From: Paramecium tetraurelia
Lineage: Eukaryota > Ciliophora > Oligohymenophorea > Peniculida > Parameciidae
Assembly (NCBI RefSeq): GCF_000165425.1
Contig: NW_001798992.1
Span: forward strand, 198,694-262,693
Length of the DNA stretch: 64,000 nt
Direction of reading: 5' to 3'
Shown: piece by piece, positions 14,896 through 62,932 of the stretch
How positions within the stretch are numbered: the stretch's first letter is position 1
How the letters are laid out: each line of letters opens with the position of its first letter
Made by a program: the position numbers and the translations under genes
Notes under the pieces: generated by a model
Database searches by the model: none
What the model was told of the DNA's origin: nothing
Seen by the model: only the letters and a program-made list of their open reading frames with translations

Positions 14896-16878
14896 TCATT
14901 ATGTGTTAAGAAGGGTTTAATAGTGTTCAATTTGTTCAGCCCAATACCTTTTGTTTTCTGAAATCTATTCCATAAACTCAGCTAACACTGGTAGAATCTA
15001 TTGAAGAGTATTATAGTAAGGTAATACCTAGATCACATAAATAGAGATACCATGAAATCTATAAATCCGATCTAGCTCTTTGCAACATTGGTCGTTCTTC
15101 TATCACACAACATAGTCACTGGAAGTCCCATATCCTTCTCCCTGTCCCCCTATTGCCAAAACTCTCCCAGCACTCTGAAAGTCCACTTCTCATAATTCTT
15201 CATTGGTTTGAAGGGGTTGCTGATATCTGCTGCATGTAGCAGAGTATCAAAGCAGATACCTTTATCTTTGCTTCCTGGATCAAAGTCATTCGAGGCCAAT
15301 CTTGCCTTCAACTTATTGAAATCTAATAATGAACTCATTCTCAGACATACCTTTGCCATGCATTGCATTATCTGTACTCAAAATCATGCTTATAGACTTT
15401 TCTCTGAAATACTTGAAATCCTATATTGAGAAATTCGAAAACAGTTCAGTTTCTCGTATACATTTGAATAGAGTAGCAGCATGATGTTGTTCAAGCGAGG
15501 ATTTATCATTGTAAGTCATTGCCAATTCATGTCTTGTGTTGTTCAAAAAGATGTTATTCAATCCTGGATGATCGACATCATGGGCAGCTGCAGACAGCAA
15601 TAGTATTGAATAATCTAATTTGGTCAATTTCCCAATTTCTTTGAAATTGCATTTCTCAATAAAGAAATAGACTGTGTGGGTGACATCGAAAGCATGAATT
15701 ACATTGTGGTAGAGATTCTCTTTGTGATAGTTCGATCCCAATTGATCCATACATTTCTTAAAAGAATCTGGAGATATCTTTAGAGTGCTAAACAAATGTT
15801 CCTTCTCAAAATAATAGCACATCAGATGAGTTAAGATGGCACTATCATATCTGTCAAATAAAGAGAAGTAATCATAATCCAAATTGAGGATGTTCTATGC
15901 GAAGTCTTGTCTTAATTATTCAGGCAACTTTGTATCGTTTGAGAAGATAATCTCTATTGAACTTGATTTCTTTGATTCCTAAGACGCCATCAACTATTAA
16001 TTTTGAGGCTGATTCAACCAACCTAGTGCTTCGCTTTTCCTCCCCTCTATTATTGGCTCATAAACAGTATTATTGGAAATATGAGTGATTCCCCAATTTA
16101 ACTACTTGATTATGTCTGAATCTTCAAATTGATCTGCCAGATCACGCATTATTTCGATCACTTTTTCAACCGGTGATCTTACAGTGTATCTTGTGCCCGC
16201 ATTATTGATCTTTTTCACTTGATTATACTATTGTTTGGTTAGTTAAGAGTATTACCTTTCGAAATACTAAAAACAATCTCAAGAATCTGAAGATACCTCT
16301 CAACACTTTACTGATAGTTGTAAATGCGTCGCCCTGTAGATTCAGATCCAAAACTATTAAGACTATGGATGCAACGATTATCAATGCATCAAAAAAGGAC
16401 CAACAATCTGAAAAATATGTCTAAGTTCACAATCAATATAATACAATAAAACCATTTTAAAAGCATCTGATGGATATTTCCAAAACAAATAGAATTAGTA
16501 TGACCAGTTCTATTATCTTAGTCACAAATAATGTCTTATCTATGTCGGGATCCTCCTTAGCATCGTTGGCTATTTTTTCAACAAGACCTTACATGTGAAT
16601 GAGAAATTGATGAAGACCAGTAGAGTGAATATCAAAACTAATGCAATTACTGCCTTATCTATCAAAGGGATTCCCTGATGTTGCTAATCAGTAATTCTTT
16701 CATAGGATGTTCAAATTTACTCATCTGCAATAACGCGATCGTAACCTTCAATATTATATGAAGACCTTCGATCCCCAAAAATATTGGAGATCTCCTTTGA
16801 ACCTCTCGGAACAACTTTAGCAGTAGCTTATCCCAGATTCCTATTAGTATCTTCATTTAAGTTCTATTGTTCAGTCAT
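14896..16878 (-). CDS. Voltage-sensor/cyclic-nucleotide phosphodiesterase fusion
   Basis: Seven exons, 610 aa, sum checked. Introns: 16697-16720, 16570-16592, 16421-16444, 16228-16255, 15323-15350, 15028-15050. Residues about 62-184 form four membrane segments. S2 carries F-V-L-E (F115, E118), matching the charge-transfer centre; S3 carries D140; S4 carries R170, R174, R177 and R183. No S5, pore loop or S6 follows. A linker of about 160 residues leads to a class I PDE catalytic domain. It has Y-H-N-V-I-H-A-F-D-V (357-366), H-D-V-D-H-P-G-L-N-N (400-409) and L-L-H-A-A-D-I-S-N-P, i.e. the metal-binding His/Asp set. The enzyme should hydrolyse cAMP and/or cGMP at a membrane, possibly under direct voltage control, as phosphatase activity is in Ci-VSP. 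Nucleotide preference cannot be told. Confidence 0.9.
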
Positions 16879-48496: not shown

Positions 48497-51400
48497 ATGA
48501 AATAATTCTCTAAAATGTTAAAGCCTCATGATTTAATTAATCTTTAGAATATAGATTCAAATTTTCAGAAATACTAATTAGTTAGAAATTGTTTTAGATT
48601 GAACATTAATAAGAGTCATTTTGATTAACTACAATAAATCTTAGGATAAACATAGGAATTATTGAATTCTTCTGACTTAGGATTAAAGAATCATCTTCGA
48701 GGAGGAGGCTGTTTAGTTTGCAAGTGCTAAAATACAAATATTAAATATTAATATCCTTCTCATTCCCATTCGTAATATATTACTTAGGTGAATGAACCTA
48801 AAAAGATTTTGGAAGTTAAAGAAATCAAAAAGAAATTAATCGAACATTTCAATTAGAATTCCTAGTTCAAATAATTCATATCAGCGGTAACAAATTGTGA
48901 TGATGATTGTGTCATTTTTACATATTAAACAATATCGATTTATCTTGAAATGTTGTAGAAACAGGAATTTCTCAAAATAGAAAAAAATCAACTCTTTCCA
49001 ATTTATGAATCTATTTAATAAATATCTTAGGATACAGAATGGAAAAAAATAATGTTTTAATTTTATTTCGACTTGTTACAATAAGCAAATGAATTTGGAA
49101 CAAAATCTAATGATCAAATATATGGGCTACTAAGTGACTTCAGTAAATAGGAATAATACACTTAAAACTAATGGGATTAATTAAAAAAGCAAAAAGACAA
49201 GTTTAGCTCTTATGAAACTTTTTATTTTTATTAAGCATACCTGAATAAATTAATCTAGCCTAATAATTTTGGAATTTCGTTGGATACTTTTGCTAATGAT
49301 TTTATTAATAATTAAGATTAAAAGAAATAGATAAATAGCTATCAACTTTTGATAGCAGCATAACTTAATTTGATGTATATATTTAATTTAACAAAATAAA
49401 ATTAGTAGTTAAACAACTTTATAAAAACAGTTTATGAAGTAAAATAGATAATTACAAAAGATGATGAATACTTTGTCAATTCGATCATAAAATAATAAGA
49501 CAAAGGTTATGAAGAAATTTAGATTTGGTTATCATATCACTTTCTCATTCTAGAACATACTTCCATCCTTAATAAGAGTATTTAAGACCATATTACACAA
49601 TTTTTTGAGATTTTGAAAATATATAAAGATAAGGATTTTTTGGAGTAATTGAATTGTATGAAAAATAGATTGGATTAAAAAAATAATTAATTATAAGTAA
49701 TTAATCCACTTGTAAATATAGTTAATGATGGTTTTAAATAGTAATTGAATTATAAAGATTAATTGGATATTGTACGCGAAAAAAAAAAAGACCAAAAATA
49801 CTAGTAGAAATAATATTATATAACTCCTTAAATTAATATCACAACATCTACATCTAAATTAGAGTCAACTTTTGATGAAGAAGTAATAAAAAATCTGTTT
49901 GAAGCATAGGAAGAAGATATATATTGGTTGTTTGGGAAATTTAAGTCTGGTAAAACAGATTTAACAAAGAAAATAATAGACTATTTATGGAAAAATTCTG
50001 ATTAGATCCCAATTTATTTCGATTTAACTGATATAGAATAAAATAAAGAGAAACCAGCTGAATTTTTAAAAACATCTCTAAAATCTGAACCATTTAACCT
50101 TACAGATTAGTAGATTTAAGATTGTTTAAACGCAAATGAAAAATTCGTCATCTTTTTAGATTATTTCGATTAAATGAGCTTAGGGTTTAGAAATAGTAAT
50201 ATCATTAACATGCTTGGCTATAAAGATAAGAAGATAAATTAAAAATTGGTTATAATTACTAGAGAATAGGTGTAAGACCTGCCATCATATCAGCCCTTAA
50301 TTTAAAGAATGATTCGAATTGAATTAAAAGAATTTGATGAAGGGTAAAAGAGAAAATATATTTAATATATCATGAATAAGGAAATTTAAAGCAATTAGAT
50401 TAACATTAATGTTTAGTAAATGATTAGTATCAATTTTAATGATGTCTAAATTTTAATCCAGGAAGACCATGTTAGACAGATTAAGATGTAATTAACTCAG
50501 GAGAATTAATAATCCATTTAAAAAATGGTGCAAAATATGTTATAATTAAACTCTATGATGAAGGACTTATTTGTATCTTGTTTTTCCTTTCATTATCAGT
50601 TCAAATTGCTGCTTAAATTAATTACTTAAAAGAACTCTGAAAAATCTCCTTAAAGATTCTAAGAATATAATAAATCCAAAAATTTAGTTGCTCAGTATCA
50701 AGAATAACAGAAAAAATAATTTAAATAACTATTAGATAGTAATAGTAATTCCTCATCCGACACAAATTCACCCTCTTCCAAAAATGAAGAACCAATTGGG
50801 ATTAATAAAATTTTAGATTCTATACTGACAAAAAGCAATCAGAAATATAGACCTTAATAAGAAGACATTTAAAAAAAATAGATTTTAAATCCTTAACTTA
50901 CAAAATTTGAATATTTTAATTCTCTTGTTGACTAATATATCTAAGATTCTTTTGAAGCAAGGGAATGTATTTGTTCAACTTATAAAATAACTAAAAAAAA
51001 AGTAAGAGAGTTTTAATCTAATCTGGCATTACTAATTTAATAAAAAGGAAATAACGATTAAGAGTCTTAAAACGAATTAATAAAAATATTTTGTCTATTA
51101 AAGTCAGATGGAGAAAAGGAAATATTCATCGACGAAAAATTCAAAGATTTTTTTATTGCAAATTTCGTATTAAGTAAAATTAATCAATTTACAATTGATA
51201 AGTCAATAGAGGAACTTGGTCAATTTAATAATTTGAATTTATGCCAAAACGCTTATGCTGAAGCAGTAGCTTTACTTTCAGATTAACTCTTATTAATATC
51301 TGAAATTAAGAATGTTCTTATTTAATTAATCAAATTATCAAAAAATTAAACTAAATACATAAGATGTTCATCTAATAGTATGTATCTTTTATCAATTCTT

Positions 51401-54400
51401 AAACTAAATTTAGAAGGAGAAGATTTAAGTTAAATCCAAATATCTGAAATACCTATATCAGGATTGAGCTTTTATTATGCAAATTTATGTAATTCACATT
51501 GGGAAAATGTTGATTTAAGTTATTGCAATTTCAATTCAGCAAACTTAACAGGTGCAAAATTGGAAAGTATAAAAGGAATTCTTTAAACACAAACAGACAG
51601 ATAGATTTAGATAAAGTAAAAGGAAGAGAGTAAAATCATCGGAGTTTTAGATCAGAAAAAAAATATATAGTCAAAAGAAAGTCAACATAAGAAAAATTAA
51701 TTAGATTCATTTGATTATCATAGCATTTAAGCAAATGAATCGCAAGTTGAAAATTCATCCAAAAAAAATCATTCAATCTAAAATGATTTATATTCAAACA
51801 TTTCTATTAAAGAAGATAATACGAATAAAATTATATATCAAAAATGCTTTAAGTAACATTGTAGCTCATTTTGTTTTTTAGCATTAAAAGATTAGGTAGT
51901 CTGTGCATTATCAAAGGATAGGATTAAATATAAGATAAATTTTTTGTTTTATAAAAAATAAAATGAGATCGAACCTATAGAAATAGAACACTAATTTGAT
52001 AAAATTACTAAAATGGCTACTTATAAAAATGATTAAATTTTAGTTTTATTAATTAATAACAATAAAATCCTTTTGATTTGGCTTAAGAGAAATTAAGATC
52101 ATTCATACAAACTAGATATTGAAAATAAAACAGAAATCAATGCTGATAATTTTACCATATCAAATTGCAAAATGTTTTTGGCGGCACACAACTGCAATGA
52201 AGTGAAAATCTATGATTAGAAATTGATTGAGGTTTATAAATTTTCATCCGTAAATGATTGGTGGAGATAAATATAATATAAGAGCAAACAAGTCATATTT
52301 GAAAAACCTTAACCAATCAATATTTTTGATTCATAAGTTGAAAATGCTCAATATTCTCCTGATGGATAAAACGTCGTTATATAATTCAAAAGCAAAACAG
52401 AATTTTATAGCATCAAAAATGATGCAGCCGTTTTAGAAATGGAGAAGGTGAATAATTTGATTTTCTCAAAAAATTATTTTGCTACAAGTTCTAATTAAGG
52501 TATTAAAATATATAGCTTTCCAGAATGTGAACTTCTCGATTGGCTACCTTTCAAAGCAAAATTATTAATATTCTCTTATAAATAAGAATAGAAATTGGCA
52601 ATTATAAGTGATTGCAATTTTATTCTTGATTTGAAAGATTTAGAATAAACCTCTCCAAAAATAATTAGGAATTTCAATTAATAAATTTAAGATTCCCCAC
52701 TTATAATTGCTGTTTCAACAAATAAGACATATAAGACAATGGCATAAAATGGATTAATTCATTTTATTGACGATTAGTTTTAAAATGAAAAAAAATAATA
52801 GTATTAAGATGAAACGATTTTATCAATGGGCTTTTTTAAAGATAATATTCATTTAGCTGTTAGAAGCAAAAAGAACAATTAACATATCTTTAGAATGATT
52901 AATTTTAGCACTTAAAAAACCACTTTAGAATGGAAAGAAGATAATTAAACTGAAGATACAGAGTTTTCTAATTAATTCTAATATTTACTGATTGAATAAA
53001 GAATATATGTAATTTCTAATCAAAATAATCGATTAGTCTTTTAAGATGTGACTCAATGGTGTTTAGATTAACGATAAAATGAGAATAATGAGAGAGACAA
53101 ACCTCCAATTATATTAGAACTAACTCATTAAAATAATGAAATATTGTTGGATAAGAGTTAAAAATAAACAATGAATATGGCTTAATTAAATTCAGATATG
53201 CCTGATGAATAATTTTTCTGTTTTAACTTTTCAATTTCTTAAGACCAAACTTATATTGCAGCATGTTTTTCTTAAAAAAAAAATTAATTTAAAAAAAATG
53301 GTTCTACTATCATTATTTGGAAATATATTGATAAATCACCACATGACTATAAATTTGAATTTGACTTTTCTCATGATGCGGGGGTAAATTTATATTTCTT
53401 GGAATACGAAAATCTATTACTTTTGATTTTCAAGTTCAATGAATAATAATGTATTCAACTCGTTTCTATCCAAAATAAAAATAAAACTAGTCTTTGTCTC
53501 AAAACGTCTGACTAACCTATCTAATCTATAGCATTTTCTTCATAGCAACAATAATTTTTTGCTATCCATTCAAATAAGAGCTTTTCTCTTTATGAAATAA
53601 TAAACGAGTAAATAGAATTGAAATATTATTTTAAAGAAACTGAGATACCAATTTATTTTAGTTAAACTGGAACTCATGTAATTTACGCTTTTTAGTAAAG
53701 TATTATTATAAGAAATGTTGATGGTATTCTTGAAAGAATCAAAAATTTCTATTTAAATGGAATAAAATAGCAGATTGATTAAAATGAGGGTATTTGTTTT
53801 TCAGATAATATCACTTATTTGAATCATGAAAATTAAATGATTTATTAATATTCTCAAGATCAATGTCAAAAAATCTCTTTGGGTCATTCATTTATCTCTA
53901 TTAATTGTTCATAATTTTCTTAGGATGAGAACATTTTAATAATTATCTCTGCAAAAGAAAGAGATAAATAATTCTTAAGAATTCTTTTTAAGACTGAAAA
54001 TAACTATAGTTAATAACAAAAAGAATCTGATTTTGATTAAGTTGTTTATTCCTGTAAATTTCTAACAATTAGTTCGTTTATACTTATCTTAAAAGATATC
54101 CTGATTTATGAAATTTCTGATTTTGCAACCAGTGTCAAATAATTAATAAGTTTGCCTAATTTTTTTTACGAGCCATAATAATCGATAGAAACTATAAATG
54201 TTCATCCAAACAGAAAGGATTTTCTCGCAATCACTAAAAGTGGTTAAATATAAATTTATAAGTTGACTCAGGATAAAGAATATAAGTATAAGTTATATAA
54301 AACACTCCCAAGAAATTTATAAGCTAAAGATTGTGTTATATCTAAATTAAATGCTAGCGATTCCATCATAGAACAATTGAAATATTTAGGAGCAATATAT

Positions 54401-54424
54401 GATGAGAAAGATAATTGTAATTGA
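48497..54424 (+). CDS. Giant intronless STAND/NACHT-like NTPase with WD40-like repeats
   Basis: One open frame of about 1,975 codons with no TGA and no need for introns. In-frame ATG codons at 48497 and 48515 are both possible starts. Residues 1-460 are helical, with an early G-G-G-C-L-V-C-K-C patch. The NTPase core has Walker A (G-K-F-K-S-G-K-T, about 480-487), Walker B (F-V-I-F-L-D-Y-F-D, about 550-558) and a NACHT-like E-L-K-E-F-D-E-G-Q-K-R-K-Y-I. A pentapeptide-like strip follows near 990 (Y-A-N-L-C-N-S...V-D-L-S-Y-C-N-F...A-N-L-T-G-A-K-L). About 850 C-terminal residues have beta-propeller character. This is the layout of STAND/NLR-type signalling ATPases. Gln/Asn/Lys content is higher than in neighbouring genes. 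The ligand and pathway cannot be inferred. Confidence 0.82.
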
Positions 54425-55355: not shown

Positions 55356-57369
55356 ATGATCGTATTGATGATTTCATTGATGCAATATGCATTAGCATAT
55401 GAACTTGATGTAAATACATTCTCAAATTATCTGGATGTCTAAAATAGGCATTTGCATTTAGAATGGTTATTAAATATGGACAAAAAATATATCAATTCTA
55501 CATCATCATACAGATTTTAAGTTGTGGGTCGTTCAATTAATAAAGTATGAAATTTGATGTATCATAGATAACATTGGATATCTATAAGTTAAATATTTAT
55601 TCAACCTATCTTTAAAATGGACTGTCACTTTCACACACAATAGACAACCCATATGAGGACTCTGATCAAGGATCGCGACTGAATATTCAATTAGATAAGA
55701 CATATTACAAAGGATAATATATAGAATTATCTATAAAATACTCTATCGATTCAAAATCTAGATCGATTAGTTTTATGACAAAAGAGTAAACCTCAACAAA
55801 AAGTAACATCAACTACAATAATTATAGCAATGCCCTACATATTTTCATAATGTGAAGATGCAAATTGCAGAGCTTTGGCTCCTTTGTAAGACACTCCTAC
55901 AGTCAAATAGACTTACACTGCAACTGTGATATTTAAAGATACAGAAGCAGCAGATGTATTTATGTCAGCGGATGAAAGCAAAGAAGAATTCCAAGTGCTT
56001 TATAGACCCAAAGATTAAGCTGGTTTCACATGGAAATATAAATATTTTATTCAAAAAGTTCCAATACCTAGTTATCTGATTGCAATAGTTGCAGGTAATA
56101 TCAAGAAAGTGCCTACAAGTACTGGAGGTAGAACATTTTTAGTTAGTGAGCCTGATAAAACAGAGGCATACACTGCTGAACTTAAAGATATGGAATAATT
56201 CATGTAGGCCATAGAACAATATATTGGTCCATACACTTGGGGAACCTACACTTTAGTAATATAGCCTGCTTCCTTTCCTATTGGAGGAATGGAAAATCCT
56301 CTTTTAACCTTTGCTAACCCTACAATTATGACAGGTACTGGGAGCGGATTAGATGTAACTATTCATGAAATGGCTCATTCATGGTTTGGTAACACCATAA
56401 CATGTGTTAATTGGGCTAATATGTGGATAAATGAGGGATTTACAGTGTTCCTTGAAAGGAAAGCATCCTTATTCCATTATCAGATTCCTGATGAAATCAA
56501 ATTAAATGCCATAATTGGAAATACATCCATGTACTAGGACATGCTTGGCTTTGGGCTTGATAGTAACTTCTCATCACTTCATCCTGATACTACCGGACTT
56601 AATCCAGACGATTCATTCAGCAAAATCCCTTATGAAAAAGGATACTAGTTTCTAGCTTATTTGGAATCCATAGTTGGAGAAGCTGATTTTAAATAGATGC
56701 TTAGAGCATATTTGGTTTAATACAAATATTAATCGATTGATCAACAGGAATTCCAAAACTTTTTACTGAGATACTTATATGAGAAATAAGTAGATGATTT
56801 TTCAACTAAGAGATACAAAATCTTAGAAAATTGGAACAAATGGGTTTATTCTCCAGGATTGCCTCCTGTGATTCTAGATTTTTCAACTCCAAAATTAGCT
56901 GAGGCTTATGATTACACTACTGCTTACATCACTGCTGATGGCTAATAGCCTACTAAATGGTAAAATTATTTTACTTTCTTGCATTCCTAAAAATAAGTTT
57001 TCTTAGAAGATCTCTTTAAATAAGCTTAGAATAATTTATTGAAAATAAATGTTATCAATTAAATGGATAAGGATTTAAAATTAACAGAAGAGAAAGACTT
57101 TGAGTTGAAATTTAGATGGTTCAGAGCAATTTTGACAGCAGGTGACAAAACTAGATTTACTTAAATTTCAGACTTTTTAGGATCTGTTGGAAGAGGCAAG
57201 ATGGTCTATCCAGTCTATAGAGCTTTAAATTAATTGGATCAGTATTTATTATCATTATCTTAGTGATTTTGCTGTAAAAACATTCAAAAATCATGAAGCA
57301 TTCTATCATCCGATTGCAAAAAATAATATAAAGAATATCCTTGGATTGAAAGAGAACATTATTTAATGA
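55356..57369 (+). CDS. Secreted M1 aminopeptidase (LTA4 hydrolase-like), 647 aa
   Basis: Four exons, sum checked; introns 55545-55567, 55803-55827 and 57242-57263. A signal peptide occupies residues 1-16. Motifs in order: M-P-Y-I-F-S-Q-C-E-D-A and D-T-P-T-V-K; the substrate-anchoring P-I-G-G-M-E-N-P; and the zinc site H-E-M-A-H-S-W-F-G-N with the third ligand in W-I-N-E-G-F. A helical C-terminal domain ends in A-F-Y-H-P-I, as in leukotriene-A4-hydrolase/aminopeptidase-B-type members. All catalytic residues are present. It should remove N-terminal residues from peptides in a secretory or food-vacuole compartment. Epoxide hydrolase activity cannot be assumed. Confidence 0.92.
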
Positions 57370-60682: not shown

Positions 60683-62932
60683 TCAAATTTCTTTATATTT
60701 TCTGATTTTTAATTCACTGCTATGACTATCATATGTTACTAAGTAAGTCCCATCATTTGATATACTTCCAAATAATCCACAACAATCACACATATTTTCA
60801 AATTCTTATATTGTTTGAAATTCTCCATTTTCTTTATGTTTAATGATATTTACATAACATCCATTCTTATTTAGTAGGACTAATTTGTCTTTAATATATT
60901 TTTAAGGGAATAACTCACTACAATTTGCACCTGATTTAATACTTACGTCTTGTTTGCTTTTTATAAATTATTTGCTTGATTAATCATATTCATAAATATG
61001 CATTATATTCAAGGATTCAGGTTAGAATGTAAATTTAGTATTTGATATAAAACATAAACTAAATCCATACCTTTCAACCTGTATTTTTTAGATTGTACTC
61101 CATTATTTATTGTTATTTTGTTATATGATTAATAACAATTTATCTGTTCCACATGATATTAATTAATTTTATGACAAATTCAATGCTAAACATCTGACCT
61201 TTTCAGTATGATCCGACAATGTCTATCTGCACTTCCACTATTAATTTTCTTAAATCCAAAATTTGATTGTCTTATCTGTACTACCAGAAATTATACAATC
61301 CTCTTAGTTATTTGTGATTAAACAATTAATTTTATCAGTATGACCTTCTAATTTTTATAAAACTTTCCATTACTTCTTATTATCCATACTCCATATTATA
61401 ATGAACTTATCATCACTGCAAGAAATAAATTAAGAACTATTCTACATAAAAAATAAAGAGTTAATCTAATCCTTATGCTCTTTAAATTATTAGATCTCTT
61501 TCGCTATTCCAGAATTAAAATCATATACTTTGATATTTCCACTACTTTAACCCACAATCATCATAGATAGTTCTTTATTAAATATTATTGATCTGCATTT
61601 AGTATTTTCTTTCAATTAAGAAATCAGTTCATAAGTAAATGATTTTTTAGTTTATGGTAGAGCTACTTACTCATTACAATTAACCTAAAGACTGACAACT
61701 GCTTATGTTATTGATAATTAATATTGAATTTGTGTTTCAGCATCAACCTTATTGATCTGATTTTTAACATCTTGAATAACTGGCTTTGAAACCAATTAAG
61801 AAAAACTAGAATTAATTAGATTCTAGAACTACATCATTTGTGAACTAATCAATTATTCAATAGCTGATTCTTTGGATTAAAATTCTTTTTCTAAGGTTTA
61901 ATTAAAAATAACGATTCTATTTTATTGACTAAGCAGATTCGCAATTCTTATGAGTTCTTCTTTGCTTAATTGATACCAAGCTTTTTAAATTAATTAATGA
62001 TGCTATTCAAGTTCATCATTTCCTTGTGAGGCTTTTTCTTAAATAGATTATATTAATTGGTCAAATTATTAAATCATAACGTCTTTTGATTCCTTCAATT
62101 AATGAATTACTTATTATTGTTTTTTTTAAGTATTACTTATATATATATTAAAAAGAGCCAAGACTTATTCATTATAACTTTTCCAAAGTTCTTGCATTTA
62201 ATCTAAATCAGTATATTGAATAACATATTCAGGAACACATTTTAAGCAAGCCACTCTACTTGGAATGCTCTTTTATGATTATAAATCAACAAAAGCTATC
62301 TAAAGTTAATGTTTTTCACAAATCCAATTAGCAGTTTATTCTTGATTGTAATTTGTCAATAGCCCAAAATCAAAAAATTGGTTTATGATCTCATTCTGTT
62401 CAAAACCTTCAATCCTTTAGATTAATTGATCAAACTTTGATTTACATATGCTTGCAAATAAGTTCCCTATTTGGGTAATAAATGATTATTATAATTCTCT
62501 ATAATTCACTTATTATTTTATGATTGTACTTTTATCTTGGTTGATAAGTTCTATTTGATCAAACTAAATATCATTTATCATCTTCTGAAATTATTAAGAG
62601 GATTATTCAATAAATTGAATTTCTGAATCAATATTTTGGTTGATTTTGTCAATTAAAACATTGATGTTTTTGCAAAGAGTTAAAAGCTGTTCCTTTAGAT
62701 CATTTAATATGCCAATGTTCTACAAATTAATGGATTCTCCTTATTACAAAACTGCAGACTTTGTTTCCTCAAACTATTTTTTTGCATCATCTATCAAAAT
62801 TAAACTCTTTTATTAATCGACTACACATTTATGACAAAGTTTCAGTGCTTTTTATTAAGATTCTGATTTTGTTAAAAATACCGCAACTTCCTTGTGATCT
62901 AAACATTACGCAAAATCATGTAATTTTTGCAT
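60683..62932 (-). CDS. B-box/coiled-coil/WD40 protein, 749 aa
   Basis: Single intronless frame from ATG 62932 to TGA 60683. The N-terminus has a B-box-like array (C-L-D-H-K-E-V...L-C-H-K-C-V-V-D). A long coiled coil with Asn/Gln-rich heptads follows over residues about 40-350. The C-terminal 350 residues form a WD40 propeller, with repeats such as G-H-T-D-K-I-N-C...I-I-S-G-S-T-D-K-T-I-K-F-W and S-D-H-T-E-K-V-R-C...C-G-T-D-K-L-L. The architecture resembles TRIM-like proteins in which WD40 replaces the usual substrate-binding domain; a RING is missing, so ligase activity is not implied. Probably cytosolic. The family seems expanded in ciliates. Confidence 0.85.

Follow-up and report, generated by a model that had tools for sequence, protein, structure and literature searches.

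Can the membrane potential of a ciliate act directly on an enzyme that destroys cyclic nucleotides? The question is raised by a gene of Paramecium tetraurelia located at 14896 to 16878, minus strand, of the window, i.e. the whole stretch of 64,000 nucleotides that was analysed (GCF_000165425.1, NW_001798992.1, positions 198,694-262,693; all coordinates are window positions). The gene is referred to as VSD-PDE (VSD, voltage-sensor domain; PDE, phosphodiesterase). The sequence-only reading placed a pore-less VSD and a class I cyclic-nucleotide PDE in one protein. This is borne out by the gene model, the Pfam matches, four further intact paralogues plus a broken one, and the pattern of selection. 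The product is probably a membrane-bound enzyme, in which a pore-less four-helix sensor lies upstream of a cytosolic class I PDE that depolarisation would switch on.

The first step is whether the two halves belong to one gene. An ATG at 16878 and a TGA stop ending at 14896 delimit, on the minus strand, a single spliced protein of 610 residues (ciliate code 6, used for all translations). The coding sequence (1.83 kb) is distributed over seven exons separated by six introns of 23-28 nucleotides; introns of this genome are typically ~20-30 nucleotides long. These introns are predicted from the reading frame and from comparison with paralogues. Start, stop and all six introns, as given by the earlier reading, were reproduced by gene modelling. 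A simple purpose-written gene finder recovered all six introns under its second setting, but joined the upstream gene on; the first setting overlooked introns 1 and 2 and broke the gene up.

14896 to 16878, minus strand: entire gene from ATG to TGA, in seven exons; 610 amino acids (table 6), from the gene model.
16697 to 16720, minus strand: intron 1, 24 nucleotides, GTA..AAG; position and phase identical in the paralogues L031 and L023.
16570 to 16592, minus strand: intron 2, 23 nucleotides, GTA..TAG; reading frame and paralogue comparison.
16421 to 16444, minus strand: intron 3, 24 nucleotides, GTA..TAG, between S2 and S3; position and phase common to both subfamilies of paralogues.
16228 to 16255, minus strand: intron 4, 28 nucleotides, GTA..TAG; reading frame and paralogue comparison.
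15323 to 15350, minus strand: intron 5, 28 nucleotides, GTA..TAG, inside the PDE core; reading frame and paralogue comparison.
15028 to 15050, minus strand: intron 6, 23 nucleotides, GTA..TAG, inside the PDE core; reading frame and paralogue comparison.

Exon 5 holds the linker together with most of the PDE; in subfamily 2 (defined below), a single exon spans S3 and S4 and the greater part of the linker. The joint between the halves is therefore independent of any single intron call. In the spliced gene model, no in-frame TGA separates the two halves. Alternative splicing inside S4 was considered for a 30-nucleotide in-frame GTA..TAG stretch at 16296-16267; this stretch is absent from all five paralogues and probably occurs by chance.

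The second step is whether the enzyme is complete. Its catalytic part is located as follows.

14962 to 15711, minus strand: catalytic core of the class I PDE (residues 357-589), interrupted by introns 5 and 6; PDEase_I at 269 bits, motifs.

The Pfam profile PDEase_I is matched over its entire length (positions 1-238 of 238, 269 bits, cut-off 24.8), and all motifs are intact: YHNVIHAFD (357-365), HDVDHPG (400-406), HAADISNPFKP (506-516) and SQIGFID (559-565). The full catalytic domain announced behind the linker is thus present. These motifs correspond to the HNxxHA and HDxxHPG motifs, the distal metal Asp and the invariant Gln of class I PDEs. No Guanylate_cyc or phosphatase family was found in the protein by the Pfam scan. 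The closest PDB structures to the catalytic part are those of PDE4 (E ~1e-54). In the alignment with PDE4A, NPFKP lies opposite NPTKP, both proteins have a Tyr eight residues past the Asn, and SQIGFID and SQVGFID align at their Gln. These matching residues, with the roles generally attributed to them, weakly favour cyclic AMP (cAMP) as the substrate.

The third step is whether the membrane half is a voltage sensor, and one without a pore. Its parts are the following.

16597 to 16665, minus strand: S1, residues 64-86; hydropathy, alignment.
16460 to 16531, minus strand: S2, residues 101-124, with F115-x-x-E118; F and E invariant in all six members.
16340 to 16405, minus strand: S3, residues 135-156, with D140; D invariant in all six members.
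16256 to 16315, minus strand: S4, residues 165-184, with K167, R170, R174, R177, R183 and K184; end of exon 4.
15880 to 16224, minus strand: linker, residues 186-300, of which 186-262 are conserved and 263-300 form a variable hinge; profile, alignment.

In the hydropathy profile, S1-S3 stand out as strongly hydrophobic, and S4 follows as a charged segment. The proposed signature was recovered by alignment in VSD-PDE: F115-V-L-E118 in S2, the acidic D140 in S3, and R170, R174, R177 and R183 plus K167 and K184 in S4 (R170 is not kept in subfamily 2). F-x-x-E of S2 and the Asp of S3 form the charge-transfer centre of known voltage sensors. K167, R170, R174 and R177 share one helical face (0, 300, 340 and 280 degrees, by arithmetic at 100 degrees per residue); R183 is off this face (160 degrees). 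E108, F115, E118, D134, W136, D140, K167, R174, R177, R183 and K184 are, among others, invariant in all six members of the family, which therefore have five S4 charges in common (K167, R174, R177, R183, K184).

The profile search of the spliced protein suggested by the earlier reading placed Ion_trans, like PDEase_I, above its cut-off. Ion_trans was matched at 42.7 bits (cut-off 25) over residues 69-194 and profile positions 8-121 of 241, i.e. its S1-S4 half only; the score is 42.7-45.4 bits according to the stretch submitted, and all six members are matched. For PKD_channel (cut-off 22.4), the whole protein fell short at 21.5 bits, and the N-terminal half scanned separately scored 22.9. No S5-pore-S6 was found after S4 on splicing, in agreement with the lack of a pore claimed earlier: no 19-residue window past S3 exceeds a hydropathy of 1.4, and the Ion_trans match ends at 121 of 241. 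In both subfamilies, S4 is followed by a basic stretch. In voltage-sensing phosphatases, the short linker is basic and lipid-binding.

A profile of VSD plus linker, searched against PDB, matched T-type calcium channels best (E 8e-17), then other calcium and sodium channels. Further matches were 3wkv ('Ion channel', 4.5e-8; presumably an Hv1 chimera), 4g7v (4.7e-7), TPTE2 (9c49, 5e-4) and Hv1 (5oqk, 1e-3). The linker had no significant match in PDB (best E 0.25); it may have some resemblance to that of human PDE8. By sequence the VSD is channel-like; by architecture it is pore-less.

Is the fusion an accident of this locus? The genome (69.07 Mb, 231 contigs) was searched with PDEase_I. The 69 exon-level matches (a lower bound) were grouped manually into 42 loci, one of them this gene, and the 41 others were fetched; the catalytic profile matched all 42 predicted PDE proteins. 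For the VSD and the linker, profiles were made with five of the six fusion proteins. Both modules are present in six of the 42 loci, sorted into subfamily 1 (this gene, L031, L023) and subfamily 2 (L025, L027, L022). In the other 36 predicted proteins, whose gene models are rough at their starts and for which the sequence covered extends ~4 kb upstream of the catalytic match, the VSD profile found nothing at E up to 0.5 and the linker profile scored 6.9 bits at most. When residues 1-343 were searched against the genome in six frames, the same six were the only PDE loci returned at E up to 0.1. Recurrence of the arrangement at six genomic places excludes chance. The number of loci is close to the count of at least 40 PF00233 entries given for P. 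tetraurelia in the available part of PMC9608856. The cyclic-nucleotide repertoire of this genome is very large, with no fewer than 42 class I PDE loci and at least 105 exon-level Guanylate_cyc matches.

In a catalytic tree, which was midpoint-rooted, has both VSD subfamilies on long branches and includes an L027 row taken from a faulty model, the six fusions form one clade (support 99/98; recovered in 98% of 200 bootstrap trees). The sister clade contains six PDEs (L018, L021, L024, L034, L038, L039), none with a VSD match. Three to five N-terminal hydrophobic segments are found in all of these except L018, whose model shows none. L021, L024, L034, L038 and L039 may correspond to the apicomplexan PDEs with multiple transmembrane segments.

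The three genes of subfamily 1 share all six intron positions and phases (lengths vary from 20 to 30 nucleotides). Within subfamily 2, positions and phases agree between L025 and L022; the last two in L027 are shifted by extra bases. In the alignment of the five intact proteins, one intron is common to both subfamilies (between S2 and S3, column 132, phase 0) and the other five differ. Independently of the tree, the shared VSD, linker and single intron position argue for a single fusion event that preceded the divergence of the two subfamilies.

Purifying selection acts on both halves. For L031 versus L023, the ratio of nonsynonymous (dN) to synonymous (dS) divergence is 0.045 in the VSD, 0.034 in the linker, 0.04 in the PDE and 0 in S4. 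Comparisons of this gene with L031 and L023 show saturated dS in most regions, and a dN of ~0.09 in the VSD as well as in the PDE. Over S4 (residues 163-184), dN is 0 in all three subfamily 1 pairs, at a synonymous divergence of at least 1.2. Identity between the subfamilies is 27% in S1-S3, 52% in S4 and 40% in the PDE. Five of the six genes are intact (single, terminal stop).

What would such a protein do? The sequence itself shows that the two halves are fused, that no S5-pore-S6 follows S4, that the catalytic motifs are intact, that the charges of S4 have counter-charges in S2 and S3, and that selection on both halves is purifying; voltage control, its polarity, the substrate and a ciliary role are inferred. 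Depolarisation would move S4 outward. This movement would, through the conserved basic linker, turn the PDE on, by analogy with voltage-sensing phosphatases, which are activated by depolarisation. Near-membrane cAMP (favoured) or cyclic GMP (cGMP) would then drop. According to the available parts of PMC4588038 and PMC8964087, cAMP is raised by hyperpolarisation in Paramecium, and adenylyl cyclases are tied to a K+ channel domain. Since the rise of cAMP on hyperpolarisation is attributed to channel-linked cyclases, a depolarisation-activated PDE would be their natural opposite. A plausible chain would run from membrane potential through the PDE and second-messenger loss to ciliary beating; an aid to ciliary reversal is judged likelier than control of beat frequency.

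Several points weigh against this proposal. Voltage gating is deduced here from sequence, its polarity is borrowed from the voltage-sensing phosphatases as generally known, and the assignment of the substrate depends on few residues. R170 is replaced by Gln in subfamily 2, where R122 of S2 is likewise not kept. The S4 charges (K167, R170, R174, R177, then R183) are not strictly placed at every third residue. One member, L027 (G000:C138:112692-113395), differs from L025 by two single-base insertions in its PDE exon, which break the frame; it is either a young pseudogene or affected by assembly errors.

Among the alternatives, the one that survives best, although unlikely, is that the VSD is a relict membrane anchor or a ciliary targeting module carried by a constitutively active, voltage-insensitive PDE. 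Membrane anchoring is indeed common in this branch, as seen from the N-terminal hydrophobic segments without VSD of five of the six sister-clade PDEs. However, S4 is the most conserved stretch (dN of 0 in subfamily 1; 52% between subfamilies versus 27% for S1-S3), and all six members keep F115, E118 and D140. An anchor would need none of this conservation.

A somewhat smaller chance is given to a functional sensor of opposite sign (PDE on at hyperpolarisation, or off at depolarisation) or to cGMP as the substrate. HCN-type sensors open on hyperpolarisation, but voltage-sensing phosphatases turn on with depolarisation. For the substrate, residues near the Gln pocket match the cAMP-selective PDE4, as far as their usual roles apply, whereas a title cited in PMC8964087 states that Ca2+ currents trigger cGMP formation in Paramecium.

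It is very improbable that the VSD conducts ions as Hv1 does, the PDE being a passenger or regulated by the local current. Hv1-type chains are found among the profile matches (5oqk, E 1e-3; 3wkv, if correctly taken as an Hv1 chimera). The selectivity residue of Hv1 is an aspartate in the middle of S1; here, D66 lies at the start of S1, the next acidic residue is D90, and D66 is opposite a Thr in subfamily 2. The erroneous merging of two adjacent genes, conceivable for a model built from reading frame and paralogues alone, is already contradicted and can be dismissed, given six loci with conserved intron positions, the lack of an in-frame TGA between the halves, and a linker that shares an exon with most of the PDE (subfamily 1) or with S3 and S4 (subfamily 2).

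How does a depolarisation-activated PDE compare with known systems? The plan resembles that of the voltage-sensing phosphatases (Ci-VSP, TPTE2): pore-less S1-S4, short basic linker (as generally described for the phosphatases) and cytosolic enzyme. The VSD profile matches two of them, 4g7v ('Voltage-sensor containing phosphatase', E 4.7e-7) and TPTE2 (9c49, E 5e-4). Theirs is a PTEN-like phosphoinositide phosphatase, whereas VSD-PDE is a class I cyclic-nucleotide PDE with a VSD. Hv1 is also a VSD without a pore, but has no enzyme, and its mid-S1 aspartate is not found in VSD-PDE.

The same genome encodes a VSD-cyclase of 881 amino acids, L043:1823-4570 (G000:C229). Ion_trans matches its S1-S4 only (32.6 bits, profile 10-110 of 241), with RVVRLVRLIRIVK in S4. 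Two more hydrophobic stretches (305-319 and 433-453, picked by eye, 113 residues apart) precede a Guanylate_cyc domain (41.3 bits). TPVGYI (368-373), between these stretches, is faintly K+-filter-like, in a region far longer than a normal pore loop. Of the three cyclase loci retrieved, L043 yielded the VSD-cyclase, L042 no predicted protein above 200 amino acids, and L044 a cyclase-like prediction of 735 amino acids. A VSD swapped between cyclase and PDE was rejected: the two VSDs have no BLASTP similarity (best E 28). The nearest VSD matches outside PDE genes are at C165 (E 1.9e-5) and C53 (1e-4), each with two matches one to two kilobases apart; both look like multi-repeat channels. L043 has the two domains of the channel-linked adenylyl cyclases of ciliates and Plasmodium and of the Phytophthora VSD-cyclases (PPTG_13136), as described in the available part of PMC4588038. 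These cyclases catalyse synthesis, the opposite reaction, and VSD-PDE has no Guanylate_cyc.

Two other systems join membrane segments to a PDE. According to the accessible part of PMC8774190, the choanoflagellate rhodopsin phosphodiesterases have a membrane sensor fused to a PDE; this sensor is a light-sensing rhodopsin in place of an S1-S4 voltage sensor. Apicomplexan PDEs, also from alveolates, have membrane helices before a class I PDE; six transmembrane motifs are reported, and 'voltage' and 'ion channel' do not occur in the main text available for PMC10865986.

Has this type of enzyme been described? No description of a voltage-gated PDE was found in the open-licence literature, among the matches listed (titles, abstract starts), and phrases for it were absent from open-licence papers. 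The 2023 review PMC10651576, in the section available, lists voltage-gated channels, CatSper, TPC, diCNGK, sNHE, a VSD/K+-pore adenylyl cyclase, Ci-VSP and Hv1. Its Figure 1 is captioned as the topology of all VSD proteins reported until then, and 'phosphodiesterase' is absent from its main text as available. In the available text of PMC9608856, cited above for its count of PF00233 entries, 'voltage-sens' is absent. Within the open-licence literature and this section of PMC10651576, the earlier statement that no such enzyme has been characterised therefore holds. VSD-PDE is real, conserved within the genome and apparently undescribed; the domain pair may already stand in protein databases.

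Other collections were searched with the VSD-linker alignment: viral contigs gave 93 pattern matches and bacterial/archaeal ones 94, 0 of which were confirmed, these collections being not meant for ciliates and silent on them. The VSD-linker protein had no match in phage records, a collection likewise not meant for ciliates and silent on them. The macronuclear chromosomes of Euplotes are gene-sized, so that two domains reported there as neighbours may be one fusion read as two. The sole lead outside the Paramecium genome may be such a case: PDEase_I and Ion_trans are always adjacent among four Euplotes subgroups, according to the available part of PMC8670190.

Three other genes of the window were annotated.

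48515 to 54421, plus strand: single open frame of 1969 amino acids; pentapeptide-repeat match, NPHP3_N match below threshold.
55779 to 57263, plus strand: peptidase M1/leukotriene-A4 hydrolase-like protein.
60686 to 62932, minus strand: WD40-repeat protein, one open frame of 749 amino acids.

What would the finding mean? Self-carried voltage sensors are known in few enzymes and transporters, according to the available section of PMC10651576. A voltage-gated PDE, if true, would complement the channel-linked cyclases on the degrading side. It is tentatively proposed, at somewhat less than even confidence, that ciliates have a push-pull pair, in which VSD-cyclases would make and VSD-PDEs destroy the cyclic nucleotide, each gated directly by voltage with no intervening ion current. 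Paramecium is amenable to RNA interference and voltage clamp, which makes the idea directly testable. A voltage-gated PDE would also be a natural electrically switched enzyme, usable as a tool, and would provide a molecular handle on the coupling of electrical events to cyclic-nucleotide levels in Paramecium-like ciliates.
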